NCBI RefSeq assembly: GCF_001279695.1
Contig: NZ_LGDD01000234.1
Location: 124,001 to 188,000, forward strand
Reading direction: 5' to 3'
Length of the DNA stretch: 64,000 bases
Source of the DNA: Streptomyces sp. WM6378
Lineage (GTDB): Bacteria > Actinomycetota > Actinomycetes > Streptomycetales > Streptomycetaceae
The position numbers were made by a program, and so were the translations under genes. Shown piece by piece: positions 55,963-59,036 of the stretch (position 1 is its first letter; each line of letters starts with the position of its first letter). The notes beneath the pieces are model-generated. The model was given only the letters and a program-made list of their open reading frames with translations, was not told where the DNA came from and made no database searches.

Positions 55963-56217
55963 TCACAGCAGGAACAGGACGAGGACGACCAGTGCGATCA
56001 CCGCCCAGGCGAGCAGGCTGAGACGGCTGCCCCGTCCGCGCGGCCGGCCCTGGTTCCACTCCGGCCGCGACTTGAGCTCGCGCAGCCGTTCGCGCCGCTC
56101 GATGCGCCTCGCTCGTTCCTCGCGGCTCAGTGGACAACCGGGCGAAGGCGCGCTGTCGGCGGCGGCCGGACCTCCCCGGCAGGGGAAGGTCCGGGACGAG
56201 CAGACCGGGCAGCTCAC
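55963..56217 (-). CDS. Small tail-anchored protein with Cys pairs
   Basis: An 84-residue protein starting at GTG 56217 (GAGG about 8 bases ahead): MSCPVCSSRTFPCRGG with a CPxC pair, a very basic helix (REERARRIERRERLRELKSR), then a C-terminal membrane helix (LSLLAWAVIALVVLVLFLL) and stop. It looks like a small tail-anchored membrane protein, possibly zinc-binding at its N-terminus. Function unknown. Confidence 0.6.
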   Translation of the reverse strand: MSCPVCSSRTFPCRGGPAAADSAPSPGCPLSREERARRIERRERLRELKSRPEWNQGRPRGRGSRLSLLAWAVIALVVLVLFLL

Positions 56218-56567
56218 TGGGTGACCTCACTCGTGCGTCAGGGCCTCGCGGGAACGGAACTTCAGCGTACCCATTTCCTTCCTAGCAGCCCGAGCGCAGG
56301 CGTCGAAAGGTATTCACGGGCAATCACCCATGGCCGTTCGGGCACTGTTCTCGGCGTCGTCACAATGAATGTTTGAAGAGGTCGCGCATGAACTCAAGGA
56401 CTCACAGGAACGAAGAAATGCGGAAGCATTGACAACGCTTGTCGCGGCCCGCTTCACTTCCCCTCAACGGTCGGTGGCGGCAATTCAACTTCCTCCCAGG
56501 TGAGTGAATTGGCGTGCCCGGTCCTGCAGTTCACATCCGGTAAATGCGTGAGAGGAAGGGATTAACG
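56218..56567. promoter_or_regulatory. Upstream region of the AWYFWY peptide gene
   Basis: About 350 bases that must hold the promoter of the RiPP cluster. TTGACA at 56429-56434 is a good -35 candidate, with only a weak -10 (TTCACT near 56453). It overlaps a perfect palindrome GACAA-CGC-TTGTC (56431-56443), a possible operator. A 14-codon ORF (MNSRTHRNEEMRKH, 56388-56432) ends in the same place. The region is AT-richer than its surroundings. Confidence 0.45.
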
Positions 56568-56675
56568 ATGGCGAAGATTATTGCTGCCTTGCGTGCCCGC
56601 GGTCCGATCTGCCTGCCCCAGGTCAAGAAGAGCGAGCCGAGCCTGAAGCAGGCCGCCTGGTACTTCTGGTACTAA
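56568..56675 (+). CDS. Atropopeptide-type (tryptorubin-like) RiPP precursor, core AWYFWY
   Basis: A 35-residue peptide, too short for routine gene finding. It begins MAKIIAALRARGPICLPQ and has a basic/polar middle (KKSEPSLKQA). It ends at residues 30-35 with AWYFWY before TAA. Tryptorubin A, an atropopeptide, derives from the C-terminal hexapeptide AWYIWY of a similar small precursor, modified by a P450 encoded next door that joins the aromatic rings. Here Ile is Phe. The next genes are two P450s. A strong GAGGAAGGG site lies 8 bases before the ATG. Peptidases that free the core are not in the cluster. Confidence 0.9.
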   Translation: MAKIIAALRARGPICLPQVKKSEPSLKQAAWYFWY

Positions 56676-56691
56676 GCCGAAGGCCAATCCC

Positions 56692-56745
56692 GGGCCCGCA
56701 CACAACGCAGGCCGACTGAATTTCGGTCAGCGCGTGTGCGGGCCC
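56692..56745 (+). terminator. Hairpin between precursor and P450 genes
   Basis: GGGCCCGCACAC (56692-56703) pairs perfectly with GTGTGCGGGCCC (56734-56745), with a further small stem in the loop and a T-rich stretch (ATTTTATTT) after it. It begins 16 bases after the precursor stop. It should end most transcripts or protect the precursor mRNA, giving much more peptide than enzyme. Confidence 0.75.
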
Positions 56746-56773
56746 TCCGCATTTTATTTCCGGAGCTCTTCGT

Positions 56774-57844
56774 ATGCCACCCGTCATGACCCGCCCCAGT
56801 CCACGCACCACGGTTTTCGCGCCACGCCTGCAGGCTTTGCTGGACGAACACCTCGGCAAGGACCTCGTACGCCTCGAACCCGACACCATCGGCATCGCCG
56901 GGGCGGAACTCTCCGACCGCATCCTGGCCGCACGGCGGGCGACGGAGACCGAACGCCCCACCTTCAAGCCGCTGCACGGCCGGTCGATCTCCAAGGCGGA
57001 GGCCTCGTCGGTGATGCGTACGGTCGGCAAGGACGTACGCGCCGCGCTGGAGCAGCCGAATCCGCTGCCCGAGTGGACGGATCTGTCGGGCCCCTGGCCG
57101 ATCACCGGGCACCGCTTCCTGAGCGACCTCGTCCTGCGCGACGACCCGTACCGGCTGCGCATCCTCATGTCCCGCACGCTGGAGATCGACCCCAAACTCA
57201 CCTGGACCACCATCGTCGCGGGCGCCGCCCTGCCCCGGCGGCCGGCGCCGGGACCCCAACTGACCCATCTGGCCAACCTGTTCGCCGAGGCACGCGGCTA
57301 CCACGACCGGCGCTACGCGATGGGCATCTACCGCCGTGCGGCCGCCCCGGTCTGCTTCACCGTCTCCACCCTCGTCGCGAACGCCCTGTGGCTCGGTTCG
57401 CCCTTCGGCGACGACGTCTCCAACCGCAACATCCTGTACGAGGCGATGCGCCTGCTCCCTCCGTCCTGGAACCTCCTGCGCAACCGGTCGCCCGAATACC
57501 CGGCCGTCGACGAGCGCATCGGGCCCGGCGACGACCTCCTGATGCTGCCGCTCCTCACCCACCGCGACCCCGCCCTGTGGGAGGCGCCGAACGAGTTCCG
57601 GCCGGAGCGGTGGGACGGCCTCGACCCGGACGACACGCCCGGATACATGCCGTTCGGGCACGTCTCGGAACGGTGCTGGGGGCGCCACATGGTCATGCCG
57701 CTCGCCGAACTCCTCCTCGACCACATCCGCCGCACCGGCCTCGTCGTCGCCCCGGGCCAGCGGTCCGCCGACGTACCGCTGGTGGGACTCCTGGGTGTGA
57801 AGACCGTCCACGTCGGTCACCGGAACAAGGTGCGCCATGTCTGA
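56774..57844 (+). CDS. Divergent P450, candidate AWYFWY cross-linking enzyme
   Basis: A 356-residue P450, short for the family. The K-helix motif YEAMRLLPPSWNLLR and EFRPERWDGLD region are clear, and the haem loop reads MPFGHVSERCWGRHM with axial Cys301. This loop lacks the usual Gly of FGxGxHxCxG (Val297 instead) and has Glu299 for the common Arg/His. The I-helix lacks the AGxxT motif (VSTLVANALWLGSPF). These changes suit a radical ring-coupling role rather than simple hydroxylation. Start at 56774 (GGAG 8 bases ahead) or 56786. Overlaps the next gene. Confidence 0.85.
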   Translation: MPPVMTRPSPRTTVFAPRLQALLDEHLGKDLVRLEPDTIGIAGAELSDRILAARRATETERPTFKPLHGRSISKAEASSVMRTVGKDVRAALEQPNPLPEWTDLSGPWPITGHRFLSDLVLRDDPYRLRILMSRTLEIDPKLTWTTIVAGAALPRRPAPGPQLTHLANLFAEARGYHDRRYAMGIYRRAAAPVCFTVSTLVANALWLGSPFGDDVSNRNILYEAMRLLPPSWNLLRNRSPEYPAVDERIGPGDDLLMLPLLTHRDPALWEAPNEFRPERWDGLDPDDTPGYMPFGHVSERCWGRHMVMPLAELLLDHIRRTGLVVAPGQRSADVPLVGLLGVKTVHVGHRNKVRHV

Positions 57845-59036
57845 CATCGAGATTCTCGGTCCGTCGTTCTTCGAGCACGCCCACGCCACCTACCGGCGAT
57901 GGCGTGAGGAAGGCGGGATCCGCCACGCCCGGTATCCGGGGCCGACCCCGGTCGAGGGGTGGGTCGTCACCTCCTATGCCGAGGCGAAGGAACTGCTCGC
58001 CGACCCGAGGCTCTCCAAGAACGGGGCGGTGGAGAGGTTCGGCCGCCACGTCGGACTCACCCAGGGCCCGGGCAGCGCCTTGTTCGCCCACATGCTCAAC
58101 TCGGACCCGCCGGACCACACCCGGCTGCGCAAGCTCGTCCAGCAGGCGTTCACCGCCCGGCGCACCGCGGCGCTGCGGCCGATGATCGAAGCCCATGTGA
58201 CCGGACTGATCGACGCGTGGGAAGGGCGCGACGAGGTCGAGTTGATCAGCGAGTTCGCGCTGCCGCTGCCGGTGGCCGTCGTGTTCGATCTCTTCGGCGC
58301 GTCCGACGCCGACCACGAGACGCTCCAGGTGCGCGGCAACACCCTCGACGGGGGCCAGGGTGACGGCGAGGTGTCGGTGTTCACCGCCGAATCGATGCTC
58401 GCCTACCTGCGGGCGCTCATCGCCCTCAAACGCGAACACCCCGACGACGGGCTGCTGTCCGCGCTGCTCCAGGCCCGCGAGGAGGGCGAGGAAGCGCTCA
58501 CCGAGGACGAGATCACCTCGATGGCCTTCCTCCTGTTCGTCGCCGGCCACCAGACCACGGTCAACCTGATCGCCAACGGCATCTGCACGCTGCTCACCCA
58601 CCCCGATCAACTCGCCGCGCTCCAGGCCGACTTGACGCTCATGTCGGGCGCCGTCGAGGAGATCCTGCGCTACGAATCCCCTTCGGGCCTCGCCTCGTTC
58701 CGCTACACCACCGAACCGGTCACGGCCGGGGGAGTGACCGTGGACGAGGGCGAGTTCGTGCAGATCTCGCTGCTCGGCGCCAACCGCGATCCGAGGGTGT
58801 TCGCCGACCCCGACCGGTTCGACATCAGCAGGGCGGACGCCGCCAAGCACATCGCGTTCGGCCACGGCATCCACCACTGCCTGGGCGCCCCGCTCGCCCG
58901 CCTCCAGGCCGAGATCGCCTTCACCCACCTGCTCACCCGCCACCCCGACCTGCGCCTGAGCGAGGCCCACGAGGCGCGGTGGCAGGCCAACCCCCGCCAC
59001 CGCGGCCTTCTCTCCGTGCCCCTGCGGCTGAAGTAG
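57837..59036 (+). CDS. Second P450 of the AWYFWY cluster, CYP107-like
   Basis: A 399-residue standard P450: I-helix LLFVAGHQTTVNL, K-helix EEILRY, haem loop FGHGIHHCLG with axial Cys348. It starts inside the last codons of the preceding P450 (8-base overlap), so the pair is translationally coupled. Typical tryptorubin-type clusters are described with one P450; a second one implies an extra oxidation or tailoring of the product. No ferredoxin gene follows, so electrons must come from elsewhere. Confidence 0.92.
   Translation: MSDIEILGPSFFEHAHATYRRWREEGGIRHARYPGPTPVEGWVVTSYAEAKELLADPRLSKNGAVERFGRHVGLTQGPGSALFAHMLNSDPPDHTRLRKLVQQAFTARRTAALRPMIEAHVTGLIDAWEGRDEVELISEFALPLPVAVVFDLFGASDADHETLQVRGNTLDGGQGDGEVSVFTAESMLAYLRALIALKREHPDDGLLSALLQAREEGEEALTEDEITSMAFLLFVAGHQTTVNLIANGICTLLTHPDQLAALQADLTLMSGAVEEILRYESPSGLASFRYTTEPVTAGGVTVDEGEFVQISLLGANRDPRVFADPDRFDISRADAAKHIAFGHGIHHCLGAPLARLQAEIAFTHLLTRHPDLRLSEAHEARWQANPRHRGLLSVPLRLK

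Follow-up and report, generated by a model that had tools for sequence, protein, structure and literature searches.

Tryptorubin A has Ile at position 4 of its core peptide. The cluster behind it, trp, combines a precursor gene with one family P450 only, and its hexapeptide is bridged between aromatic side chains (PMC11450843, in part). Atropopeptides as a class are defined by a homologue of this family P450, a nearby precursor of 10–40 aa with a C-terminal aromatic core, and atropospecific aromatic cross-links; the leader motifs described are KSLK, RSLK, ESLK, KSRK, KPLK and PSLK, and Trp is conserved at core position 2 (PMC11450843, in part). The two-P450 cluster of Streptomyces sp. MMG1121 was named as the lead to lau, the cluster for laurentirubin B in Streptomyces laurentii; in lau, LauB1 on its own yields tryptorubin B, and a Trp–Tyr aryl ether is introduced by the second P450 (PMC11450843, in part). 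The LauA core is WYIWY, with Ile at core position 4 (PMC12352619, in part), and thus the compared parts of these papers describe no characterised two-P450 product with an AWYFWY core. Liu et al. 2024 (doi 10.1002/anie.202314046) is cited in PMC11450843 (in part) for two further cases that depart from the one-P450 rule, and the compared parts of the same paper describe no second P450 for the amyxirubins and clavorubins.

Here we describe a locus in Streptomyces sp. WM6378 that resembles both two-P450 clusters. Within the window (the whole stretch of 64,000 nucleotides that was analysed), a precursor gene, a family P450 (P450-1) and a second P450 (P450-2) followed one another (Table 1), as they do in lau and MMG1121, with identities of 68–74% for P450-1 and 60–63% for P450-2. 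The MMG1121 cluster (locus L088) has the same AWYFWY core, whereas the LauA core is AWYIWY; relative to LauA, the leader here is also longer (35-aa precursor, with a PIC segment) and reads PSLK instead of KSLK. The locus shares a precursor and a family P450 with trp, which differs in having only the one P450. We consider it very probable, judging from these genes, that the locus is a laurentirubin-type atropopeptide RiPP cluster with two P450s, in which AWYFWY would be converted into a rigid, multiply bridged peptide with Phe replacing the Ile of laurentirubin.

Table 1. Features of the two-P450 locus, in positions of the window.
Feature	Position	Strand	Details
Ribosome-binding site GAGAGGAAGGG	56550..56560	+	Seven bases 5' of the precursor ATG; read from sequence
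Precursor peptide gene, 35 aa	56568..56675	+	ATG 56568, stop TAA 56673–56675; leader MAKIIAALRARGPICLPQV..., recognition-like motif PSLK, core AWYFWY
Stem-loop GGGCCCGCACAC ... GTGTGCGGGCCC, then T-rich stretch	56692..56745	+	Between precursor and P450-1 genes
P450-1, 356 aa	56774..57844	+	Atropopeptide P450 that defines the family; by homology, the cross-linking enzyme
P450-2, 399 aa	57837..59036	+	LauB2-type second P450, predicted further cross-link; homology, co-inheritance

A scan of named genomes for relatives of P450-1 found 88, of which 80 were kept, at identities of 55–94%. In 79 of these 80 loci, a short ORF with a Trp-containing core end lay directly upstream of the P450-1 relative, and the sole locus without such a precursor (L085) was a cut-off match. 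The preliminary description of this DNA had set the presence of a related short ORF beside P450-1 homologues as one half of its own test; this outcome, together with the homology of P450-1 and a match of the precursor to the NCBIfam family NF038372, bears out its assignment to an atropopeptide-like RiPP class. P450-1 was 74% identical to its counterpart in Streptomyces sp. MMG1121 (L088) and shared 68–70% identity with P450s in records under the names S. laurentii, S. jumonjinensis and S. clavuligerus, the last two of which represent the likeness to the amyxirubins and clavorubins, systems that also use a family P450. Membership of the family was established through the S. laurentii, S. jumonjinensis and MMG1121 relatives, not through the trp P450 WP_007820080.1 itself. 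Homologues of P450-1 at E ≤ 1e-60 were present in 47 of 392 genomes drawn from the host genus and 59 of 394 drawn from the host family, and both draws take in distant homologues of 38–40% identity, at nine places. At four of these nine (L187–L190), where the P450s share 38–39% identity with P450-1, a pattern search found no atropopeptide-like precursor upstream.

By sequence, P450-1 is remote from solved P450s (best E 5e-8), and its Pfam P450 match was limited to residues 219–317. The AlphaFold model predicted a P450 fold (mean pLDDT 75.7, pTM 0.81), with EryK entries among its best matches in the PDB (TM about 0.5–0.6). An unusual haem loop in one of the P450s had been remarked on in the preliminary description, and such a loop is indeed present in P450-1 (FGHVSERCWG, with no Gly at the usual place). 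However, the stretch ERCWGRHMV was the same in all 27 aligned members of the family, and thus the loop is a hallmark of the family and not a sign of novelty; this invariance ruled out a new kind of haem loop. Two further RiPP assignments were rejected. Against the aminopyruvatide P450 ApyO (NF050147), P450-1 scored 54 bits and P450-2 95.1, cf. a cut-off of 525, and the biarylitide type needs a five-residue precursor gene (PMC13417212, in part), cf. 35 aa here.

The precursor ORF translates as MAKIIAALRARGPICLPQVKKSEPSLKQAAWYFWY. A 35-aa ORF with a strong ribosome site and an AWYFWY end had been claimed for this position, and the coordinates, the TAA stop and GAGAGGAAGGG, all read directly, agreed with the claim. 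Its PSLK motif, one of those described for the family, sits in KKSEPSLKQ, Trp occupies core position 2 (A-W-Y-F-W-Y), and a precursor of 35 aa near the P450, with an aromatic core at its C-terminus, lies within the 10–40 aa range of the class. When compared with NCBIfam, the precursor had a sole match at E ≤ 1, to NF038372 (tryptorubin_fam; E 1.2e-5), and its 25.5 bits were below the curated cut-off of 33 bits. This score could be taken to mean that the 35-aa ORF is an open frame by chance and that the substrate of both P450s is a small molecule of other origin, and the codon differences also lean that way: over the last 16 precursor codons, the differences between 11 relatives and the window comprised 13 synonymous and 13 non-synonymous changes, a split that, taken by itself, does not demonstrate strong purifying selection. 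Nevertheless, core residues A, W, Y, W and Y were kept in all 11 relatives (the fourth residue was Val in L016 and Ile in L017), the WYxWY + TRR pattern occurred twice in the 9.49-Mb genome (361 contigs) with a stop codon in this copy only, like ORFs accompany all but one of the 80 relatives, and the ORF has a good ribosome site. With this evidence on the other side, we regard the chance frame as almost certainly wrong.

Two overlapping P450s downstream of the precursor had likewise been described, and the reading frames of P450-1 and P450-2 do overlap, by 8 bases. The two-P450 plan itself holds, and the second P450 has a published precedent in laurentirubin B (PMC11450843, in part). The haem loop of P450-2 is ordinary (FGHGIHHCLG), and the enzyme is CYP107-like, with 5cje and PikC among the closest solved structures listed. 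Its identity was 63% to P0178, the second P450 in the Streptomyces sp. MMG1121 locus (L088), and 60–62% to four P450s attributed to S. laurentii by record name. By orthology, then, a second P450 of the LauB2/MMG1121 type stands beside the family P450, as in the laurentirubin-type clusters, and it is by orthology only that we infer a second oxidation in this strain.

The haem Cys was present in 17 of 18 aligned relatives of P450-2. The other, P0203 from an S. lavendulae record (60% identical), has the haem loop FGHGIHHRLG, without the Cys ligand, and is possibly a dead enzyme, a misread sequence or a P450-like helper. When four candidates per genome were scored in the 392 genomes, with P450-1 called at E ≤ 1e-60, P450-2 relatives of at least 60% identity were found in seven genomes; six adjoined P450-1 and one, in G121, was in a genome without P450-1. 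The G121 relative (L213:3983–5149; about 56–60% identity) is solitary, lies near genes that resemble, by eye, those for ribosomal protein S1 and dephospho-CoA kinase, and is possibly a source or a repurposed copy of the second P450. Its occurrence apart from P450-1 counts against the laurentirubin-type reading. Two loci had P450-2 relatives in another arrangement, upstream of P450-1 and on the opposite strand: Kutzneria sp. 744 (L080, 4461–5635; 55–59% identity, with the unusual core AWALWY) and L081 (42% identity). Both were counted as lacking P450-2. The second P450s of L021 (Kitasatospora sp. MAA19) and L023 (Streptomyces sp. MJM8645) accompany Ile-core precursors, and a script did not find the AGxxTT I-helix motif in either; these enzymes may do different chemistry.

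Co-inheritance was assessed across 173 loci, which came down to 135 at a threshold of 98.5% ungapped identity and to 129 rows after six were dropped (L085, truncated; L186, with a broken P450-1 and no precursor found; L187–L190, with no precursor found). P450-2 was directly downstream of P450-1 in 29 of the 129 rows, absent in 97 and undecidable in 3. Its frame was longer than 340 aa in 27 of the 29 rows (that of L150 runs to the end of the locus), and the copies in L033 and L128 appeared broken, for which sequencing error is a possible cause; such an error was found by the authors for lau (PMC11450843, in part). Distances among P450-1 and among P450-2 sequences were strongly correlated over 27 of the 29 pairs (Mantel r 0.91, reached in 0 of 2000 permutations), to which shared species history contributes. 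If P450-2 stood outside the pathway, the product would be a plain tryptorubin-type Phe analogue (–4 H), and the relatives without P450-2 (L013, L018 and L121), as well as the two apparently broken copies, would fit such a reading. The 8-base overlap with P450-1, the adjacency of the two genes in 29 of 129 rows with matching distances, and the precedent of lau (PMC11450843, in part) all speak for a role in the pathway, and we consider an outside role very improbable.

The preliminary description had also singled out Phe in place of Ile in the core. Phe is present but is not unusual, as AWYFWY was found in 24 of the 129 rows, which rules out a unique Phe core. P450-2 was present in 22 of these 24 rows (2 of the 22 copies being broken); among the other 105 rows, 7 had P450-2, 95 lacked it and 3 were undecidable (7 of 102 decidable), and the seven P450-2 clusters concerned carry Ile or Val at core position 4. 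The window's clade comprises 14 rows, in which P450-2 was absent from L121 (AWYIWY), L018 (AWYHWY) and L013 (Phe kept), and was kept without Phe in L016 (AWYVWY) and L017 (AWYIWY). On a tree of the 82 rows with P450-1 identity of at least 66%, on which gain and loss of P450-2 are not distinguishable, P450-2 status changed 9 times and Phe-4 also changed 9 times. Of 7 independent pairs across supported branches, the two characters differed together in about 3.2 and apart in 0.1, with Phe undiffering in 3.7 (sign test, median p 0.25). The association of Phe-4 with P450-2 is thus a suggestive lead that is not significant once relatedness is counted.

These observations bear on what P450-2 does. 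Its identity to the LauB2-type enzymes is only 63% (MMG1121) and 60–62% (S. laurentii), which leaves room for another regiochemistry, and its presence in 22 of 24 Phe-core clusters would be sensible if Phe4 mattered to the enzyme. The cluster might therefore encode an atropopeptide on which P450-2 performs chemistry other than that of LauB2, such as ring hydroxylation or a Phe4 bridge, so that the product would not be a laurentirubin analogue. Against this, the kept gene order and the co-inheritance with P450-1 suggest one retained role, and because Ile or Val takes position 4 in seven of the clusters with P450-2, Phe is not the only substrate of P450-2; on balance, different chemistry appears rather unlikely. 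In a further reading, which we judge unlikely, Phe-4 and P450-2 would make up a co-evolved module, with P450-2 acting on or against the Phe ring to give a bridge or oxidation absent from laurentirubin B, and with clusters that lack P450-2 mostly lacking Phe. Clusters in which P450-2 is missing (L013, L018, L121) or apparently broken (L033, L128) provide a natural comparison set. Together with the Phe-4/P450-2 association, this set makes the role of the second P450 directly testable, and a system of only 2.5 kb lends itself to asking how a second P450 acts on a hexapeptide that is already caged.

Under the preferred laurentirubin-type reading, every chemical step of which we infer, the precursor would dock on P450-1 through its leader, made up of an N-terminal helix and PSLK. 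In the manner of LauB1, P450-1 would join Trp2 to Tyr3 and to Trp5 and close Trp5 on the backbone, giving three tryptorubin-type bonds with a net loss of 4 H. P450-2 would then add a Trp5–Tyr6 aryl ether, as LauB2 does, with a net loss of 2 H more, and a protease encoded elsewhere would remove the leader, possibly together with Ala1. A Phe-4 laurentirubin is the likely product, with a predicted [M+H]+ of 929.362, or 858.325 without Ala. The same –6 H arithmetic, when applied to laurentirubin, gave 895.377 and 824.340, cf. published values of 895.376 and 824.340 (PMC11450843, in part).

RiPP operons can have partial terminator or RNA-stability elements between their genes. The stem-loop between the precursor and P450-1 genes had a folding z of –4.7 relative to 200 shuffles. 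Within the window's clade (11 loci), 92.8% of cells paired, cf. 20–48% in slid controls, and both sides had changed in 7 of 19 pairs, in a structure derived from the same 11-locus alignment that was used for testing, which favours the hairpin. In 500 shuffles, neither the covariation score nor the percentage paired was ever reached; the number of both-side pair changes was reached 21 times and the number of further pair types 235 times. Family-wide, folding at z < –2 was seen in 86 of 127 intercistronic stretches, cf. 24 of 127 stretches that precede the precursor gene and 8 of 127 within P450-1. A simple terminator scan gave 1 site at the hairpin, cf. 1.4 expected by chance, and Rfam returned nothing over threshold on 56200–56900. 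The main text of PMC11450843 has no wording on a terminator, hairpin, stem-loop or intergenic element, and our literature search on RiPP intercistronic hairpins matched no paper with the terms used. We interpret the hairpin as a putative partial terminator or RNA-stability element that would lower P450 expression relative to the precursor and so hold the precursor above the enzyme.

The edges of the cluster were apparent from relatives with kilobases of flanking sequence. In seven of these (L013–L018 and L050), DNA shared with the window started at ~56.28–56.80 kb and ended at 57.84 or 59.03 kb, that is, at the three genes or a few hundred bases outside them; L121 and L148, with only ~1.5 kb of flank, agreed. 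No protease, transporter or regulator was found in the shared unit in the comparison with L013–L018 and L050, and published minimal atropopeptide clusters likewise have none in the unit. Four Streptomyces records (L009–L012) shared most of the 14 kb compared with the window. A SnoaL-like gene, an esterase and a third P450 were rejected as further cluster genes, as they lie in the neighbourhood common to close relatives among L009–L012. The third P450 (61485–63065, – strand; Pfam E 8.7e-77), 2.4 kb downstream, was placed outside the cluster because its DNA was common to L009, L011 and L012 only among the compared loci.

Taken as a prediction from its genes, the cluster is a well-supported addition to the known laurentirubin-type atropopeptides, and neither the Phe core nor the pair of P450s is unique to the window. 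In a search of the running text of papers, the string AWYFWY was not found, and WYFWY appeared in seven papers, all titled on other subjects. Since a published paper names the MMG1121 cluster, which also has the AWYFWY core, the combination of this core with two P450s may already stand in supplements, and products in Liu et al. 2024 and in PMC9826248, the first atropopeptide paper, may overlap with the product predicted here. What is added here is the Phe-4/P450-2 association, the covarying hairpin and the finding of subclade precursors under the NCBIfam cut-off. The nine precursor sequences scored for the window's subclade, that of the window plus eight more (10 of 14 rows), were all below the NF038372 cut-off, cf. 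two of two above it from outside the subclade, and annotation that relies on the cut-off would thus likely miss the subclade members.

Two loci elsewhere in the family had features of their own. Xanthomonas sp. GPE 39 (L087, 5511–5773) had two precursor ORFs before one P450, with the ends SWPHWY and AWEGYISY. L072, a record titled Burkholderia multivorans WS-FJ9, had an AWYLWY precursor and a P450-1 relative of 66% identity, and its Burkholderia label sets it apart from the other loci, which come mainly from Streptomyces and Xanthomonas.
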